A stretch of DNA of 43,765 nt from an uncultured Oscillospiraceae bacterium (GTDB taxonomy: Bacteria; Bacillota; Clostridia; Oscillospirales; Oscillospiraceae). Every line of letters starts with the position of its first letter. The stretch's first letter is position 1. The stretch is from contig CANQQO010000008.1 in the NCBI GenBank assembly GCA_947625965.1, positions 1 through 43,765 on the forward strand, read 5' to 3'. Of the stretch, positions 34,919 through 43,765 are shown in pieces. Under the pieces are notes generated by a model that saw nothing but the letters and a program-made list of their open reading frames with translations, did no database searches and was not told the DNA's origin. A program made the position numbers and the translations under genes.

Positions 34919-35004
34919 GCTTTTTGTCCATTTTATGCAGCCATAAAAATCAACGCCGGCTGCGCGGAATTCGGGCGAATTCATTCGAAAGGAAGGAAAC
35001 GAAT

Positions 35005-35661
35005 TTGAAGAAACGGAAGAGAGGCGCGCTGGTTTTACTGGCAGTATTGGTGGCGCTGTCCACAACTGCGGTGGCCTTCGCGGAACCGGCGCTGGGAGTG
35101 TGGATCGATTATTCCACCTTCTCCAACGCCGACGGCAGCCTGCTGGTGCCGATATTCACCGACGGCACCGCTACCGACGGTATTGTGACGCTGACCTACA
35201 ATCCGGAAGTGCTGAGCGTGACGCCGGAGGATCTGGAGGTCACGGAGCTGACCGTGATGCACGCCGCGAGCCTGGTCAAGCCGGGCGAATTGAAGATCAG
35301 TTGGATCGCGGACACCACCGAGGGTACGCTGATGTTCGTACATTTCACTGTCAAGAAAATCAGTGTCGACACGGGCCTGCGGCTCACGGGACAGGCTTTC
35401 GTGGCGGGGCGGGAGGACAACGTCTCCGTGGCCGTTGGCTCCTTAGGCGCGATCCTGCCAGAATTACCCCCCCCCGCTGGCGTAACGACCCCCGGCGGTG
35501 CGGCGGCACCTGGCGGCGCGGCAACGCCCAGCGGCAGCGACTCGATGAATGTGCCCAGGACTGGTGACGGTTTCCAGCCCCTGCTGTGCCTGATCGCGGT
35601 TGCCGCCTCCGCCGCCGGCGCGGCGGTATGCCTTGGAAAAATCAGAAAGGGGGCCAAGTGA
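35005..35661 (+). CDS. Sortase-anchored cohesin-like surface protein
   Basis: A 218-residue exported protein. The signal peptide (residues 1-~26, KKRKRGALVLLAVLVALSTT) is followed by one cohesin-like beta domain (~30-155): strands such as GSLLVPIFTDG, GIVTLTYNPEVLSV, GELKISWIADTTEGTLMFVH and FTVKKI follow cohesin order. A Pro/Gly/Ala linker leads to NVPRTGD, an xPxTG-type sorting motif, a hydrophobic helix and the basic tail KIRKGAK. The start is TTG at 35005 with AAAGGAAGG upstream; the longer open frame would include the promoter. Cohesins bind dockerins; the next gene, 1 nt away, has a dockerin-like segment. The cohesin call is by eye. Confidence 0.7.
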   Translation: MKKRKRGALVLLAVLVALSTTAVAFAEPALGVWIDYSTFSNADGSLLVPIFTDGTATDGIVTLTYNPEVLSVTPEDLEVTELTVMHAASLVKPGELKISWIADTTEGTLMFVHFTVKKISVDTGLRLTGQAFVAGREDNVSVAVGSLGAILPELPPPAGVTTPGGAAAPGGAATPSGSDSMNVPRTGDGFQPLLCLIAVAASAAGAAVCLGKIRKGAK

Positions 35662-35662
35662 T

Positions 35663-38600
35663 ATGCGGGTGAAAAAGTGGATCGCGTTCGCGCTGTGCTT
35701 TGCCATGGCGCTGTCGCTGTTGACCAATTTGGCCCCAGTTGCCCGCGCCGAGGAAACGCCCCAGACCCAGACCGAGGCGCCCACCGTCCCCGGCCCCCAG
35801 GAAACGGAGAAGACCGAGCTGACCGCCGGGGAGCGGGAGGCCATTCTGGCCGCCGCACAGGCCGTCGCCGCTCAGAAAATCGACCGGGACAGCCTGGATG
35901 TGGACCTGACCGGCAGCGTCCAACTGGACGACGCCCTTTTGAAGAGTATGCAGGCGCTAAAGCCCGACGAGGATCTGGAGGTGCCCGTCCTTATTTTGAT
36001 GAACGAGGACTCCGTGATTGAGGAAAACAGCGCCGCCGTGCCCAGCACGATCACCCTGGCAAAGGCCGGCGAGCTGGAAAACAGCCAGGACGCCGTCATT
36101 GCCTCCATTGAGCGCAATGTGCTGGACGCGCCCCTGGAGGTGCATTACCAGTACACCTGGCTGCTCAACGGCATCGCCGCCACCGTGCCCTACGGCAAGA
36201 TCTCCGAGATCGAGAATCTGCCCGGCGTGGACCGGGTCATTGTCCAGCCGGTATACTACCCCATGGACAGCGAGGTCCAGCCCCTTACCGACCAGGATGG
36301 CGGCATGATCGGCCGCTATGAGACTTGGGAGACCGGGTACACCGGCAAGGGCTTGAAGATCGCCGTGATCGACTCCGGCCTGGACGACGACCATCCCAAC
36401 TTTGCGCCCCTGCCGGAAGACCGCCTCACTTCTACCTCCGCCACCGTGAGCACCATCGAGGCCGTGCTCACCCAGCTCCATGCCTATGAGTCCTACCGGG
36501 GCCTCAGCGCGCAGGAGCTGTACCGCACCACTAAGGTGCCTTACGCCTTCAACTATGTGGACAATGAGCTGCGGTACAACCATGCCGACGGCACGACTAC
36601 CAATCCCCACGGCACCCATGTGGCCGGCATCGCCGCCGCCAACAAAATCGAGGGCTCAGATGTGGTAGGCGTGGCCCCCGACGCCCAGCTCTACATCATG
36701 AAAATCTTCCACGGCTCCGACGGCGCCATGACCCAGGATATCCTGGCCGCCTTGGAGGACGCCCTGCTGCTGGGCGCGGACGTGATCAATATGAGCCTTG
36801 GCACCACCGCCGGCTTCTCCAGCTCGGTGGAGGAAGTCAATGAGATCTACGCCCGGGTCAGTACCACCGATACGGTGCTGTCCATCGCCGCTGGCAACTC
36901 CGCCACTTCCGGTTATCAAAACCTCTTTGGCACCAACGCCAGCCTTACCAGCAACCCGGACAACAGCACCATCAGCTCCCCCTCCACTTATCAGAGCGCC
37001 CTTTCCGTGGCCAGCGTGGAGAATGTGGCTTACCGGGGCTATTACCTGGAGGTCGCCGGGAAGCACTACAGCTTCTACGAAGGCACCCGGGCCAGCACCG
37101 CCGTGGCTACCTTCCAGAGCCTGTCCGCCAACGGCCCCATGGGCTACGCGGTGGTGGGCAACATGGGCCAGACCTTGGAGGACTTCACCAAGGCCGGCGT
37201 GGAAGGCAAGATCGCCCTGGTGGAACGGGGCGTTACCTCCTTCAGCAATAAGTGTGAGCTGGCCGAGGCGGCCGGCGCCATCGGCTGCCTGGTGTACAAC
37301 AATGATGTCGGCACCTTCGGCATGGCGATGAGCGACTGCACCGCCGCCATTCCCTGCGCCTGCGTCACCCGCCTCACCGGCCAGGCGCTGATCTCCGCCC
37401 TGGAAAGCGATCCCGCCGCCACGATGACCGTGGCCGGGGAGCCGGGCCTTGTTCCCAACGACGCCGCCAATCAGATGAGCAGCTTCTCCTCCTGGGGCGT
37501 GAGCCCGGATCTGGCGCTGAAGCCCGACATCTCCGCCCCCGGCGGTGAGATTTACTCCACCATGGACGGCGGAAGGTACGATACCATGAGCGGCACCTCC
37601 ATGGCCGCCCCCAACCTGTCCGGCATCTCCGCCCTGCTGATGCAGTATGTGCGGGATCAGCTTCCCCAGTATGCCGACGGGAAGGGCGCGCTGCATGACT
37701 TTGCCAACGCTCTGCTCATGAGCACCGCCGTGCCCCTGACCTACAACGGCAACGGGGTGTACTTCTCTCCCCGGCAGCAGGGCTCCGGCATGGCCAACGC
37801 CTACAAGGCGGTGACGGCGCCGGCTTACCTGGAAGTGCCCGGCATGGACCTGCCCAAGGTAGAGCTGAAGGACGATCCCGCCAAGACCGGCCACTATCAC
37901 TACACCTTCCTGGTGCATAATTTCAGCGGCAAACCGCAGTACTACGTTCTTTCCACCAATGTGCAGACCGAGAGCGTCTCCGACGAGGGCGACGGCAACC
38001 TCTACATGGGCATGACGCCCCAGGCCCTGACCGCCCAGATCACCCATACCGCCGACGGGCTGTTCTACACCTACGACTACAACGAGAACGGCCAGATCAA
38101 TTCCCACGACGCCTACCTGCTGTGGCGGGTGGCCACCGGAAAGGACCCGCTGCCCGACGGCGAGGAGTTCCGCTATGACCTGCTGGGCAACGGCGGCGCG
38201 GGGCTGGACGATGTGCAGGCGTATCTGGACGAGCTGGTGGGCATTGAGCGCACCGACGCCGAGGACCGGCCCATCGACCTGTGGGAGCAGAGCCTCCAGG
38301 TAGGCGCCGGCGCCGTCAGCGAGGTGGGGGTGGACATCACCCTGTCCGACGTCAGCCGGCAGTACATGGACCGCAACTTTGCCAACGGCATTTATGTGGA
38401 AGGCTTCACCGTTCTTCGGGACCAGACCGGCGGCGTGGACCTGTCCCTGCCGTACATGGGCTTCTACGGCGACTGGTATGTGGCGCCCATGCTGGACTAT
38501 GGCTATTACTACCAGACCACGGACGAAATGGCCGAGAGCGGATGCAGCCAGTACCCCAACATCCTCTGGACCCAGTTGGGCGACAACGGCGCGGACTATC

Positions 38601-41600
38601 TTTTGGGCCTGAACCCCTACGTCAACGAGGATTATGATCCCGCCCACGCCTCCATCTCCCCCAACGGCGACGGATATGTGGACTACCTGGACGACATTTA
38701 CGTTTCCTTGCTCCGCAACGCCAAGGAGCTGACTGTGAGCTATATCCTGACCGGCACCGACACCGTGCTGTCCGAGGAAATCGTGGAGCACGTGGGCAAG
38801 ACCTACTACAGCGATACTTACCAGCAGATGGTCCCCTACATCCACTCCTGGTACTTTGATCCCTTTGACCTGATCGTGGACGGGGAGCCTCTGCCCAACG
38901 ACACCAAGGTGACGCTGCGGGTGGAAGCCGTGCCCGACTACGACAAGGGCGAAAACGAGAATGTCCACAACGTGTGGGAGACCGAATTTGTCATCGACAC
39001 CCAGGCCCCCGAATTGGTGGGCGAGCCCCGGTACGCCGAGGTGGACGGGCAGAAATACCTGGTCGTCACCGTGCGGGACAATGTCTCCGTGGCGGCGGTC
39101 AGCGTGCTCAGCAAGCTGGAGACCGTGGTCTGGAGCAGCACCGCCCTGGACGACAACGGTGAAAACGTCACCAAGGACGAAACCGGCCTGACCTACACCG
39201 ATGTGATCATCCCCATTACCGGCTATGGCAACGAGCTGACCCTGGTCCTGGGCGATTACGCCTGCAACGAGCAGGCCTATTACCTGGAGACTGAGGACAA
39301 CGATCCGGTCCTGGACCAGACCAAGCTCTACGGCTACCGGATCAACGACACCGAATACACCAACGAAGCCTTCTACGGCTGGCTGGCCATCGATCCGGTC
39401 AAACCCGCCGAGGGCGACAACGCCAACGTGCAGGTGCTTGACAGCGAGGCCTTCATGGACTACTCCCTGATCAGCGCCGCATATGTGGACGGTTACATCA
39501 TTGCCGAGGAAGCCAGCAGCCACCGTCTGGTGTGGCTCAAGCCCGGCTACTGGGACGAGCGGCACTCGATCGCAACACTTCCCTGCGAGGTGCGGGCCAT
39601 GACCTTCGACGCCACCACCGGCAAGCTCTATGGCGTCGCCGCCTCCTCCCCTCCTGGCTACGGCCGCCTTATGGAGATCGATCCCATCACCGGCGCTTCC
39701 CGCTATATTGGCAGGGCCAACAGCCTCATCTCCCTGTGGGCGCTGACCTGCGACGGCCAGGGCAATCTCTATGGCCTGGACAACACCGGCAAGCTGCGGT
39801 TGATCAACAAGACCAGCGGCATCTGGGGCGAGACCGTTATTGAAAAGGTGGAGACGGAGGCCGTCCCCACCGCCAGCTACAACTCCATTTACTTTGACGT
39901 TGCGGAGAACTGCATCTACCTGGCCATTTACTCCCATGGCACGGAGGGCGCGCTGTACCGCATCGACATGACCGACAATTATCCCACCACCCGCATCGGC
40001 ACCATCGCCGGCAACGCCCAGATCGTGGGCCTGACGAAGCTGGACGACCGGGGCTGGCACCTGCCGGAGGCAGAGCTGGAGAGCATCGCCTTCACTCAGG
40101 AGTCGGTGGATATGCTGGTGGGCACCACCGAGATCCTGGAGATCCAGGCGAACCCCTGGTACGCAAGCCCCGAGAAGCTCACCTGGGCCTCCGCCAACCC
40201 GGAAATCGTCTCCGTGAGCACCAGAGGCGTCCTCACCGCGAAGAGCGTGGGACAGACCACCGTTACCGCCACCTACGGCAGCCTGACGGCCACCACCACC
40301 GTGACGGTGCTGGAGCCCCAGGGCCAGTTGACCGGCTTCATCCAGTCCAGCTCGGACGATAGCCTGGGCCTGATTAACCAGTGGGTCGACTTCCCCGCCG
40401 TCAAGCCCAGCACGGGCGAGGTACTGACGGATATCTCCTTCACCACCTTCACCGCCGGTGAATATGTGGACGGCAAGGTCTACGCCTTTGACAACGCCAA
40501 CGCCTTCTACTCGATCGACATGGAGACGATGGAAGCCACCCGGATCGCCAACGGCACCATCAGTGTCTATATGACCCTGGATATGGCGTATGACTACAAG
40601 ACCGGCTTCCTGTACCTCCTGGCTCTGGATCCCATGGCGGGCTATCTGCTCTATCAGGTGGACGTGCTCACCGGTATCGCAGACCCTGTGACCAATGTGG
40701 ATGCGGTTGCCATCACCTTCGGGCCCGACGGGACCATGTACGCGATCAACATGACCGGTATGCTGGTGAAGATGGACCCGATGACCGGCGAACAGACGCC
40801 CATCGGCTACACCGGCTTCACGCCTGCGGAGATGTCCACCAACAGCCTGGCCTATGACCTGAACACCGACGAGCTGTACTGGGCCATGACCGCCTCCAAT
40901 GGGACCGGCGACTACTTTGGCATTTCCTATGTGAATCTGCGGACCGGTAAGGCCAGCTACCTGGGCGCTGTGGATGCAGAGCAGTCCATGTCCTGCCTGT
41001 TCTCCGCCCCGGAGACCGTGCCGCAGCGGGAGGAAGTGCCGGTGGCGGAAGTCATCAAGCTGACGGATAGCACGCTCACCCTGACCGATCACGTCATGGC
41101 CCTGCCGGTGCAGGTGAAGCCCTACAACGCCACCAACCGGACGCTGAACTGGACCGTGGCCGATCCCTCCGTGGCCAAGATCGAGGACAACCTCTTGGTG
41201 GGCCTGTCCGCCGGTACCACCACCGCCACGGGCACCTTGGACGACTTCAGCGTTACCCTGGATATCACGGTAAAGCCCGCCGCCGGTTCCCTCAGAGGCT
41301 TTGTCGTGATGGACTTCTCCGGCATGGGCCAGGGCTTCTGGGCCCGGATCGTGGACTTCGCCCCCAATGAGAGCAACGAGGGCCTGGTGGGCTACAAGGA
41401 CGACACCATCACCGCCGGCGAGTATTTCAATGGTAAGATCTACGCCTACGGCACTCAGGAGTCGGATTACAGCTACGACGGCACCATATTCTACGTGATC
41501 GACGCCAATACCTTTGAGATCGAAAAGCAGGTCAAGGACATGAGCATCGCGGACATTCACGACATGGCCTTTGACTACACCCAGGGCGTCATGTACGCCG

Positions 41601-43057
41601 TGGGCGGCCAGAGATATGGCGGCGACCCCGACCGGCTCTACTGCGTGGACATCAATACCGGCCTGACCTACCAGATCGCCCAGTTGGACGACCTGATCGG
41701 CGCGGTGGCCTGCGATGACAAGGGCCAGCTCTACGGTACCTCCATCACCGGCACCTTCTACAAGATCGACAAAGTTACCGGCGCCCTGGAGAAGCTGTCC
41801 GACCTGGGCTACCCTGCTTACTCCTACACCTCTATGGCCTTCGACCACAACACCGGCAACCTGTACTGGGCCCAGAGCCATACCGATTTTATGACCTACA
41901 CCCAGAACGGCACCCTGCTGCTCCTGGACCCCGAAACCGGTAATTCCACCAATCTCGGCCCGGTGGGCCTGGTGGGCTGCATGGTCACGAGTCTTTACAC
42001 CGTTCCCAAGACGGACCTGCCTGTGGGCAGTCCCAATGTTTCCAGCATCAGCCTGAACAGCACGGCAGAGGTCCTGGCTCCCGGCGGCACCTTCCAACTG
42101 ACGGCCCAGGCCATGCCCGTGGGGCTGGCGGGGATCAGCGGAAGCTGCGCCTTCACCTCCAGCAACCCGGCGGTGGCCACGGTCAGTGAAACCGGCCTGA
42201 TCACCGCCCTGGCGGGCGGCGTCGCCACCATCACCGTCACCTCCGGCAGCGCCTCTGCGGAATTCTCGCTGACGGTTCTGGACCCGGAAAAGGAGCTCAT
42301 TGCCTCCGGCTACAATCAGCTCTTCTTCTCCAAGCTGGTATCGCCCACGGAAGTTACCGAAACGGTAGACCTGCCCATGGAGTCATTGCAGGGCGTACTG
42401 ATGTGTGCCACCTACAATGGCAAGGACGGCTATCTCTACGGCATTGTCGGCGACGGCCAGAGCAGCTTCTCCCTGGCCAAGCTGACCGTCACCGGTGAGG
42501 CGGTCAGAGTGGGGGAGGACCTGATGATGCAGATCATGATGGTGTCCTCCGGCGACATTTCCGGCTGCCAGGTTGCGGACATCAGCTACAACCCCTTTGA
42601 TCAAAAGCTCTATGTCCTGGTCATGACAATGGACATGAACGGGATGCCCGGCGGCCGCATCTATGAGATCGACCCCGCAACCGGGAACCTGACCTTCACG
42701 GCCAATGTAACGGGAAGCGCCGCAACCGGCGGAATGATATATCCCACCTCCTTCACCTTCGTCAATGAGACGGAGTACTTGGTGTACGATATGGTGGCAG
42801 GCGGCTTCCTTCGCAACGGCCTGGACGGCAGCACTCGTGTTTTGGCCCCCTTCAGGGAGGTTAGCGGGATGCCCGCCATGGCTTACAGTAAGGAGCTCAA
42901 CACGGTCTATGTGGCCTTTGCCTCCTCCGGCGCGCCCATGATGACCCTCTCGCCCACCACCGGTGACATGAGTGAAGTCACCGAGGGCATGAGCGGCGAC
43001 GTGGTGGACCTGCTGTTCCCGGAGGGCGTGGCCCCCGCCGAATCTCTGAATCCGTAA
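35663..43057 (+). CDS. Giant secreted subtilisin-family (S8) protease with PA, dockerin-like and Ig-like repeat domains
   Basis: A 2464-residue lactocepin/C5a-peptidase-type protease. In order: signal peptide (1-29, ending ARA); I9-like propeptide (~110-205); S8 domain with D237 (AVIDSGLDDDHP), H316 (PHGTHVAGIAA) and S646 (SGTSMAAPN); protease-associated insert (~470-590); Fn3-like region from ~730, with a dockerin-like insert at ~803-860 (YDYNENGQINSHDAY, then a weaker second loop); then beta-rich region. From ~1270 to the end, beta-propeller-like blocks alternate with three BIG2-like domains (~1472-1549, ~1796-1871, ~2127-2206). There is no C-terminal sorting signal. The start at 35663 is 1 nt after the cohesin gene stop, with AAAGGGGG upstream. 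Likely digests host or dietary protein at the cell surface. Confidence 0.92.
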   Translation: MRVKKWIAFALCFAMALSLLTNLAPVARAEETPQTQTEAPTVPGPQETEKTELTAGEREAILAAAQAVAAQKIDRDSLDVDLTGSVQLDDALLKSMQALKPDEDLEVPVLILMNEDSVIEENSAAVPSTITLAKAGELENSQDAVIASIERNVLDAPLEVHYQYTWLLNGIAATVPYGKISEIENLPGVDRVIVQPVYYPMDSEVQPLTDQDGGMIGRYETWETGYTGKGLKIAVIDSGLDDDHPNFAPLPEDRLTSTSATVSTIEAVLTQLHAYESYRGLSAQELYRTTKVPYAFNYVDNELRYNHADGTTTNPHGTHVAGIAAANKIEGSDVVGVAPDAQLYIMKIFHGSDGAMTQDILAALEDALLLGADVINMSLGTTAGFSSSVEEVNEIYARVSTTDTVLSIAAGNSATSGYQNLFGTNASLTSNPDNSTISSPSTYQSALSVASVENVAYRGYYLEVAGKHYSFYEGTRASTAVATFQSLSANGPMGYAVVGNMGQTLEDFTKAGVEGKIALVERGVTSFSNKCELAEAAGAIGCLVYNNDVGTFGMAMSDCTAAIPCACVTRLTGQALISALESDPAATMTVAGEPGLVPNDAANQMSSFSSWGVSPDLALKPDISAPGGEIYSTMDGGRYDTMSGTSMAAPNLSGISALLMQYVRDQLPQYADGKGALHDFANALLMSTAVPLTYNGNGVYFSPRQQGSGMANAYKAVTAPAYLEVPGMDLPKVELKDDPAKTGHYHYTFLVHNFSGKPQYYVLSTNVQTESVSDEGDGNLYMGMTPQALTAQITHTADGLFYTYDYNENGQINSHDAYLLWRVATGKDPLPDGEEFRYDLLGNGGAGLDDVQAYLDELVGIERTDAEDRPIDLWEQSLQVGAGAVSEVGVDITLSDVSRQYMDRNFANGIYVEGFTVLRDQTGGVDLSLPYMGFYGDWYVAPMLDYGYYYQTTDEMAESGCSQYPNILWTQLGDNGADYLLGLNPYVNEDYDPAHASISPNGDGYVDYLDDIYVSLLRNAKELTVSYILTGTDTVLSEEIVEHVGKTYYSDTYQQMVPYIHSWYFDPFDLIVDGEPLPNDTKVTLRVEAVPDYDKGENENVHNVWETEFVIDTQAPELVGEPRYAEVDGQKYLVVTVRDNVSVAAVSVLSKLETVVWSSTALDDNGENVTKDETGLTYTDVIIPITGYGNELTLVLGDYACNEQAYYLETEDNDPVLDQTKLYGYRINDTEYTNEAFYGWLAIDPVKPAEGDNANVQVLDSEAFMDYSLISAAYVDGYIIAEEASSHRLVWLKPGYWDERHSIATLPCEVRAMTFDATTGKLYGVAASSPPGYGRLMEIDPITGASRYIGRANSLISLWALTCDGQGNLYGLDNTGKLRLINKTSGIWGETVIEKVETEAVPTASYNSIYFDVAENCIYLAIYSHGTEGALYRIDMTDNYPTTRIGTIAGNAQIVGLTKLDDRGWHLPEAELESIAFTQESVDMLVGTTEILEIQANPWYASPEKLTWASANPEIVSVSTRGVLTAKSVGQTTVTATYGSLTATTTVTVLEPQGQLTGFIQSSSDDSLGLINQWVDFPAVKPSTGEVLTDISFTTFTAGEYVDGKVYAFDNANAFYSIDMETMEATRIANGTISVYMTLDMAYDYKTGFLYLLALDPMAGYLLYQVDVLTGIADPVTNVDAVAITFGPDGTMYAINMTGMLVKMDPMTGEQTPIGYTGFTPAEMSTNSLAYDLNTDELYWAMTASNGTGDYFGISYVNLRTGKASYLGAVDAEQSMSCLFSAPETVPQREEVPVAEVIKLTDSTLTLTDHVMALPVQVKPYNATNRTLNWTVADPSVAKIEDNLLVGLSAGTTTATGTLDDFSVTLDITVKPAAGSLRGFVVMDFSGMGQGFWARIVDFAPNESNEGLVGYKDDTITAGEYFNGKIYAYGTQESDYSYDGTIFYVIDANTFEIEKQVKDMSIADIHDMAFDYTQGVMYAVGGQRYGGDPDRLYCVDINTGLTYQIAQLDDLIGAVACDDKGQLYGTSITGTFYKIDKVTGALEKLSDLGYPAYSYTSMAFDHNTGNLYWAQSHTDFMTYTQNGTLLLLDPETGNSTNLGPVGLVGCMVTSLYTVPKTDLPVGSPNVSSISLNSTAEVLAPGGTFQLTAQAMPVGLAGISGSCAFTSSNPAVATVSETGLITALAGGVATITVTSGSASAEFSLTVLDPEKELIASGYNQLFFSKLVSPTEVTETVDLPMESLQGVLMCATYNGKDGYLYGIVGDGQSSFSLAKLTVTGEAVRVGEDLMMQIMMVSSGDISGCQVADISYNPFDQKLYVLVMTMDMNGMPGGRIYEIDPATGNLTFTANVTGSAATGGMIYPTSFTFVNETEYLVYDMVAGGFLRNGLDGSTRVLAPFREVSGMPAMAYSKELNTVYVAFASSGAPMMTLSPTTGDMSEVTEGMSGDVVDLLFPEGVAPAESLNP

Positions 43058-43076: not shown

Positions 43077-43104
43077 TCTCCCCACACCTTCGGGTGTGGG
43101 GAGA
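43077..43104 (+). terminator. Terminator of the protease operon
   Basis: A perfect 12-bp stem (43077-43088 with 43093-43104) capped by the stable TTCG loop, 20 nt past the stop codon, followed by caatttatt. The T-run is weak. The next ~140 nt up to the second hairpin hold no recognised gene. Confidence 0.7.
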
Positions 43105-43312: not shown

Positions 43313-43765
43313 TTACTTCGTCTGCTTCGCTTTCTTTTCAAACTTCCAGCGCTTGACAATGGCTACCGTGCCCCAGACGATCAGGGCGGCGGCCAGAACG
43401 CCTTCCGCGATCAGGATGAAGTAGTAGTTCGGGAAGGGAAGCTGCCCGGCGGCCACGCCGTGGACGATGCCGTTCATGGCGTTGGAGTTGACGGTGGTGT
43501 ACAGGATGTGCTTCACCGCCTGGCGGGCATAGTACCGGGAGGCGGGATTGCTGATGTCCAGCTCCGCGTCGGTGTAGTAGCCCGTGAGCTTCAGGTCGCC
43601 GCCGGCCCGGATGCACTGTTCGGTGTCCATGACGCCGCCGCCGTCATAGTCGGTGATCACGGTGCCTCGGAAGCCCCACTCGTTGCGGAGCACGCCGGTG
43701 ATCAGATTGTAGTTGCCGCCGGCCCAGGTGCAGCCGATCCGGTTGAAGGCGGACATCACCGCCAT
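43313..43765 (-). CDS. GH3 family glycosidase, C-terminal part (runs off the window)
   Basis: The last 150 codons of a glycoside hydrolase family 3 enzyme, cut by the window edge. AVMSAFNRIGCTWAGGN and LLITGV-type LRNEWGFRGTVITDYDG are the end of the catalytic TIM barrel, with the nucleophile Asp in TDYDG. Only about 110 residues follow, and the last ~40 form a membrane helix (YFILIAEGVLAAALIVWG) with the basic tail RWKFEKKAKQTK. There is no room for the usual C-terminal alpha/beta sandwich, so that domain is either upstream (permuted, as in Ruminococcus albus type beta-glucosidases) or absent. Probably membrane-tethered beta-glucosidase or related activity. Confidence 0.85.
   Translation of the reverse strand: MAVMSAFNRIGCTWAGGNYNLITGVLRNEWGFRGTVITDYDGGGVMDTEQCIRAGGDLKLTGYYTDAELDISNPASRYYARQAVKHILYTTVNSNAMNGIVHGVAAGQLPFPNYYFILIAEGVLAAALIVWGTVAIVKRWKFEKKAKQTK

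Follow-up and report, generated by a model that had tools for sequence, protein, structure and literature searches.

Gene pair at the locus

The window analyzed here, i.e., the whole stretch of 43,765 nucleotides (nt), covers positions 1–43,765 of the forward strand of contig CANQQO010000008.1 (assembly GCA_947625965.1; contig C8 below) from an uncultured Oscillospiraceae bacterium, whose whole genome comprises 2.03 Mb in 110 contigs and is 92% complete. Our analysis concerns two genes of this window, A and B, which lie on the + strand in this order with a spacing of 1 nt. They encode a small exported cohesin protein and a giant protease of the S8 (subtilase) family that carries a dockerin insert, respectively. 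The features of the pair are as follows.

34990–34996, + strand: AGGAAGG, likely ribosome-binding site of gene A (sequence reading)
35005–35661, + strand: gene A, exported cohesin protein with sorting signal, 218 amino acids (aa), TTG start (sequence, profile, predicted fold)
35083–35454, + strand: cohesin domain of gene A, residues ~27–150 (hold-out profile, E = 2.5e-8; AlphaFold2 model; structural comparison)
35551–35658, + strand: sorting signal of gene A, consisting of VPRTG, hydrophobic stretch, and basic tail (sequence; sortases in the genome)
35663–43057, + strand: gene B, giant S8 (subtilase) protein resembling cell envelope proteinases, 2464 aa, anchor not recognisable (sequence, Pfam, structure comparison)
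36344–37741, + strand: Peptidase_S8 catalytic domain, residues 228–693, with D237/H319/S646 (PF00082, E = 3.7e-49; alignment)
37157–37390, + strand: PA domain inside the catalytic domain, residues 499–576 (Pfam)
38045–38260, + strand: putative dockerin inserted in the Fn3-like region, residues ~795–866, loop 1 canonical, loop 2 degenerate (hold-out profile, E = 4.4e-12; alignments)
38273–38458, + strand: fn3_5 (Fn3-like) match after the insert, residues 871–932 (PF06280, E = 6.7e-8, profile positions 57–112 of 112)
42038–42262, + strand: best of three Big_2 immunoglobulin-like repeats, in the C-terminal half, residues 2126–2200 (Pfam)

From the N- to the C-terminus, protein A consists of an export signal, a beta-rich domain, a linker, and the sorting signal. 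Its C-terminus (NVPRTG...KIRKGAK) combines an xPxTG motif with a hydrophobic stretch and a basic tail as in sortase substrates, and the genome contains two matches above the cut-off to the sortase family PF04203, either of which may act on VPRTG. An AlphaFold2 model of residues 25–164 has nine strands arranged as in the cohesin beta-sandwich (predicted local distance difference test score, pLDDT, 79.4; predicted template modelling score, pTM, 0.72), and the top 39 rows of a structural comparison with this model were all cohesin entries. Because a query of 5.8 billion proteins with protein A returned a single match, an identical piece of 159 aa, own profiles were needed for the further searches; the hold-out profile that recovered the cohesin domain had been built without the window. 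The Pfam cohesin family PF00963 matched 27 of the 42 aligned cohesin segments (window included) at E ≤ 0.01 and 15 of 24 partner proteins at E ≤ 0.1. Three further weak matches of protein A within its own genome (E = 0.004–0.1) covered only residues ~151–215, i.e., the linker and sorting signal, and were set aside.

Protein B comprises an export signal, a pro-region (identified by eye), the S8 domain with its PA insert, an Fn3-like region, and Big_2 and DUF4394 repeats. The PA-containing S8 domain, the catalytic triad and the Fn3-like domain form the core of an S8 cell envelope proteinase (CEP), and the closest solved structures for residues ~220–773 are C5a peptidase, SpyCEP, and PrtP-type CEPs. 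A C-terminal wall anchor of its own was not recognisable in the sequence of B, which is thus not a classical self-anchored CEP.

The insert in B is identified as a putative dockerin on the basis of profiles. It was recovered by the hold-out profile and also when its clade was left out (E = 7.5e-7). The Pfam dockerin family PF00404 stayed below its cut-off of 22.9 bits with the whole protein (E = 0.88, 10.3 bits) and with the segment alone (E = 0.0035, 17.9 bits), and it matched 19 of 20 aligned dockerin segments (window included) at E ≤ 0.01. In the alignment of these 20 dockerins, loop 1 of B is canonical, while loop 2 lacks position 3. The insert is also seen in an alignment of 13 S8 proteins, and in a further alignment the dockerin-less paralogue on contig C11 shows a gap at this site. 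In locus L114, a relative, the corresponding segment was predicted to be a three-helix unit. Among solved structures, a Ca-loop chain of 151 residues labelled 'Serine protease' is present in PDB entries 8x39/8x3a, and a literature search for these two codes found no paper.

An earlier note on this DNA, made from the sequence, had described the short gene as an exported cohesin-like domain with an xPxTG motif, and its neighbour as a subtilisin-family protease without an anchor and with a dockerin-like Ca-loop segment (~803–860) in its Fn3-like region. The profiles, the predicted cohesin fold and the sortase matches bear out both descriptions.

Co-occurrence of dockerin and cohesin in related proteases

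Relatives were sampled from 200 genomes of the family, from the window's own genome, and from 80 of 535 loci in named genomes. At least 24 of the 200 genomes had a match (37 stretches), a lower bound given that at most about four candidates were scored per genome. Clustering at 95% identity reduced the 123 S8 frames of ≥700 aa to 116, and 114 non-redundant frames were classified, of which 89 are complete at the 3' end and provide the following counts. All 56 proteases with a dockerin at the site seen in B were associated with a cohesin, which is located in the same chain (33), in the gene directly upstream (11), or in the gene directly downstream (12). In contrast, a cohesin was found with none of the 27 proteases without any dockerin (Fisher's exact test; p = 2e-22 against these 27 and p = 2e-23 against all others, taking no account of descent). 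Absence of the pairing from relatives had been named in the earlier note as one of the results that would speak against a docking system, as had folds unlike cohesin or dockerin; the pairing is instead regularly present, and the predicted fold of A is that of a cohesin. The 25 frames cut at the 3' end were excluded from these counts; ten have the insert without a visible cohesin, nine have both, and six have neither.

Some classifications were made by hand. The dockerins of L094 and L057 were first recognised by eye, L072 was re-scored as insert-bearing because its catalytic start had been mis-set, L124/L129 and L153 were given their own classes, and L100, which has broken frames, was left out of the table and the tree. 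Prior to re-scoring and class changes, the table of 3'-complete frames read 55/57 versus 2/33.

Dockerins at other positions gave a mixed picture among the 3'-complete frames. A cohesin was found in none of three proteases with a C-terminal dockerin and in neither of the two with a dockerin in a later Fn3 loop; the single protease with a dockerin at residue 1470 (L153) has a fused cohesin. The two later-loop cases (L124:8301-13163 and L129:8416-12771) have their canonical dockerin in the Fn3-like domain that bears the insert in B; the stretch examined contained no cohesin, and any partner would be encoded elsewhere. Beside proteases L123, L130, and L141, which have a C-terminal dockerin, further dockerin frames adjoin on the opposite strand, again with no cohesin in the stretch, and these proteases are perhaps clients of a conventional scaffold.

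The window's genome contains five giant S8 paralogues. Three of them have a dockerin, namely B and the paralogues on contigs C30 and C50, whose chains themselves end in a cohesin and a TPKTG signal. The dockerin-less paralogues (C11 and C59) had no cohesin in their chains or in the surrounding stretches examined. Clade profiles detected three S8 dockerins and three cohesins in this genome, plus a separate dockerin on contig C1 beside its own Pfam cohesin; the search for other dockerins suggested by the earlier note thus yielded C30, C50, and C1, each with a cohesin. A multi-cohesin scaffoldin with several dockerin enzymes, as in cellulosomes or mucinolysomes, was not detected by these profiles in this genome, which is 92% complete. 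The earlier note had also considered a dedicated two-gene pair unusual. The pairing is real but not unique to this locus, as many relatives, including C30 and C50, are fused.

The C1 locus (L004:5407-9593, G000:C1) represents a second pair. Its first protein has a Big_3 domain, a CHAP match below the cut-off, and a C-terminal dockerin, as well as a cohesin-like stretch found by our own profile and not called by Pfam. The second protein, encoded 5 nt further on, combines a cohesin with Big_2 and has a PPKTG sorting signal at its end.

Phylogeny, gene order, and fusion

An unrooted tree of the S8 proteins was computed from the part of the sequence that precedes the insert; cut dockerin-less rows (e.g., L152) were entered as having none. 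The tree offers seven independent contrasts in dockerin presence. The cohesin changed in the same direction in six of them, in the opposite direction in none, and did not differ in one (sign test; p = 0.031). The window groups with L092 and L093 (Roseburia metagenome-assembled genomes), L057, and L094, and the cohesin gene lies upstream in all of them (Shimodaira–Hasegawa-like approximate likelihood ratio test, SH-aLRT, 95–98). The fused clade (support 100) sits among lineages with a downstream partner (unstarred branches, 85–94), which suggests that the fused form arose by the joining of a downstream cohesin gene to the protease.

In L172:1-3592 (G195:C13), a dockerin (Dockerin_1, E = 5.9e-6) is located at residues 320–371 within the S8 catalytic domain, just past the active-site histidine stretch, and a cohesin gene with SLH domains lies directly upstream. 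This suggests that the insert can change position without losing its partner. The frame runs off the contig and may be an assembly artefact.

Location of the surface anchor

Anchors were assigned by rough sequence patterns. Among the 23 adjacent-gene pairs, an anchor was found on none of the 22 readable proteases (the L092 protease was unreadable due to masked bases), and on 15 of the 23 cohesin partners, comprising seven with SLH domains and eight with sorting-like signals, several of which lack the P of LPxTG. The only anchor call on a protease of an adjacent pair (L109) was rejected by eye. By comparison, the chain itself bears an anchor in 21 of the 30 3'-complete proteases that lack the insert. 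In the complete fused proteins, L153 included, an anchor was called in 22 of 34 and was not recognisable in 12; of these calls, at least the one in the fused protein L075 was false as judged by eye. The anchor of the partner can therefore be an SLH domain, or be unrecognisable, in place of a sorting signal.

The eight partners without a recognisable anchor end in similar short tails of basic and aromatic residues, mostly KKFFGxF-like (for example IKVKKFFGLFG), which may be a surface-retention signal of a new type. Six of the partners (L101:12464-13372, L103:12329-13183, L104:12590-13402, L106:12587-13399, L116:12278-13099, and L134:12110-12931) also carry a further stretch, and neither SLH domains nor a sorting signal were found in these six. 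Locus L106 is from Pseudobutyrivibrio xylanivorans DSM 14809, and its protease is encoded at L106:8329-12606.

Matching of dockerins and cohesins across genomes

In all seven Butyrivibrio/Pseudobutyrivibrio-type genomes, one Dockerin_1 match above the cut-off was detected, located in a protease-length frame. The best cohesin match was a partner-length frame 1–2 kb away in six of the seven (three above the cut-off), and five other cohesin matches had E values of 0.04–0.09. In genome G195, a genus-mate of the window's genome, clade profiles gave six matches each for dockerin and cohesin, all on the same six contigs; three loci of this genome that were absent from the earlier sets encode S8 proteases whose cohesin is part of the chain (two) or adjacent (one). 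Genomes G049, G089, and G161 contain one dockerin and one cohesin each, and these are adjacent. In G066, whose pair is orthologous to that of the window, the cohesin was found and the degenerate dockerin was missed by the profile.

Proposed function and alternative explanations

Our results make it likely that A and B form a dedicated two-protein cell-surface proteinase, in which a cohesin–dockerin clasp holds a C5a-peptidase/lactocepin-like protease at the surface. Protein A would be exported and fixed to the wall through its sorting signal, its cohesin would bind the dockerin that interrupts the first Fn3-like domain of B, and the catalytic unit of the anchorless B would thereby be held at the surface non-covalently. 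In the fused relatives, the same contact may be kept as an intramolecular or chain-to-chain clasp. That a cohesin on the wall tethers a dockerin protease had been the interpretation of the earlier note, and it gains support from the pairing in relatives and from the position of the anchor on the partner and not on the protease.

Co-variation of the two modules was assessed as the correlation of dockerin and cohesin distances given the catalytic-domain distances, with five control segments. Across all 65 pairs, this correlation was 0.31 (p = 0.001 by permutation). For the dockerin it was 0.30 in the 42 fused proteins, compared with −0.13 to 0.05 for the five controls, of which the two Fn3 segments (0.05 each) are the fair ones in this set. 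A model of a natural 965-aa chain from L114 that spans both modules (pLDDT 78.5, pTM 0.47; relative module placement not interpretable) contains an Fn3 array as in SpyCEP and C5a peptidase, Big_2, and a beta-propeller, with dockerin helices at 82–93, 102–105, and 115–126 and cohesin strands from 857. A fold comparison of the whole model listed no cohesin or dockerin row; single domains can escape in such a long model.

Several points weigh against the proposed function. We infer the binding of A to B, and likewise the calcium dependence of the contact, the actual wall linkage of A, and the substrates. Both modules are divergent: protein A has no match in Pfam, PF00963 included, and the dockerin of B has one degenerate Ca loop. 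The loci used to build the profiles are also those that were counted (partial controls were made). With regard to co-variation, over the same 65 pairs the Fn3 segment that follows the insert gives 0.25, three of the five controls are lowered because they are parts of the conditioning region, and the 23 adjacent pairs gave no specific signal (0.35 versus 0.13–0.35 for the controls). The eight partners lacking a recognisable anchor, all of Butyrivibrio/Pseudobutyrivibrio type, also fit poorly. Finally, Pfam found no cohesin in G205, one of the seven Butyrivibrio-type genomes, and G066 has a weak dockerin match elsewhere (C23, E = 0.002).

It is unlikely that the clasp is primarily structural or regulatory, with the cohesin on the Fn3-like domain beside the catalytic domain holding together a processed multi-part protease or gating its activity, and with anchoring as a secondary effect. 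Such a role would be in line with the 33 one-chain cases among the 56 complete ones, where an extra tether is not needed, with the co-variation in fused chains, and with the fused proteins and separate partners that have no recognisable anchor. However, the separate pairs carry the anchor on the partner and never on a readable protease, which is what a tether predicts. Co-inheritance without contact, the Ca-binding insert and the beta-sandwich being merely old neighbours, appears highly improbable. Common descent accounts for much of the association and the separate pairs lack specific co-variation, but both modules change together on independent branches (six of seven contrasts), the side on which the partner gene lies (upstream or downstream) varies between clades, with fusion in still others, and the cohesin is kept where the dockerin sits at other sites (L153 and L172). 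We give least credence to a cellulosome- or mucinolysome-like scaffold, where the cohesin would recruit several dockerin enzymes with the protease as one of them. Scaffolds of this kind are known for cellulosome cohesins and have been proposed for Limousia mucinolysomes (PMC12997984). In contrast, each of the partners listed has one cohesin match, and dockerins and cohesins occur one-to-one and together in five of six genomes searched with clade profiles and in six of seven Butyrivibrio-type genomes.

Beyond the tethering of B by A, a broader reading is plausible, albeit tentative. In a family of gut CEP-type proteinases, the cohesin–dockerin clasp may replace a peptide bond, so that a calcium-dependent contact and not covalent continuity holds the catalytic unit to the surface part; for this reason the cohesin-plus-anchor part could occur either in the same chain or as a neighbouring gene. 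If this is true, the single-chain members would to our knowledge be the first natural intramolecular cohesin–dockerin staple.

Surroundings of the gene pair

A 12-bp stem 20 nt past the stop codon of B is a candidate end of the A–B transcript, based on a pattern match; nine terminator-like sites were found in the region versus 5.7 expected.

43077–43104, + strand: 12-bp stem, candidate transcript end (pattern match)

A promoter scan found none near gene A and no excess over shuffled sequence, and neither tRNAs nor Rfam matches at gathering scores were detected in the window. Ten neighbouring frames were scanned, encoding a LacI regulator, an amidohydrolase, URO-D (twice), RraA-like, Ldh_2, and ATC_hydrolase proteins, a partial GH3, and two unmatched products, and none of them points to a link with the A–B pair. 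The neighbours of orthologous loci looked different by eye. At 43313–43765 on the minus strand, a gene cut by the contig end has a Glyco_hydro_3 match just under the cut-off.

Comparison with known systems

The best-known role of cohesin–dockerin pairs is to plug enzymes into multi-enzyme cellulosomes. In gut and rumen Firmicutes, the pair described here would serve as a dedicated clip, near one-to-one, that holds a protease at the surface; it also occurs within one chain. If binding is confirmed, it would offer a natural way to display a very large proteinase on the surface non-covalently, account for an anchorless enzyme staying on the cell, and supply new cohesin–dockerin pairs for orthogonality tests.

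S8 CEPs such as C5a peptidase (ScpA/ScpB), SpyCEP, and PrtP/lactocepin carry their own wall anchor, whereas in the A–B pair the anchor belongs to a separate cohesin protein and the protease has a dockerin within its first Fn3-like domain. The non-cellulosomal cohesins of Clostridium perfringens, which PMC12997984 touches on, are part of glycoside hydrolases and join enzymes to each other; in contrast, the cohesin of A is combined with an anchor only and is encoded beside one protease.

Subtilases with a dockerin were tabulated in a 2008 survey (Subt-(Dockerin_1)2, NP_280653, and Sub_N-Subt-PA-Dockerin, NP_691157; PMC2605481). This combination is shared with B, but the word 'cohesin' is absent from the available survey text, which describes no partner. 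In topical full-text searches of the open-licence papers in PMC, we found no report of a dedicated single-cohesin partner for a CEP-type proteinase that is interchangeable with a one-chain form. The proposed Limousia mucinolysome resembles our system in comprising dockerin peptidases and an LPxTG cohesin protein (cSca5) in gut bacteria; it differs from the A–B pair in its multi-cohesin scaffoldins and many carbohydrate-active enzymes (PMC12997984). The closest parallel in layout is the surface attachment of cellulosomes by type II cohesin anchoring proteins (e.g., SdbA) and LPxTG anchoring scaffoldins, where an anchored cohesin is likewise located outside and the dockerin on the client (PMC5817068). 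Unlike in cellulosome attachment, no scaffoldin was seen here, one cohesin is present per dockerin, the client is a proteinase, and the dockerin lies inside the Fn3 region of this client instead of at its end.

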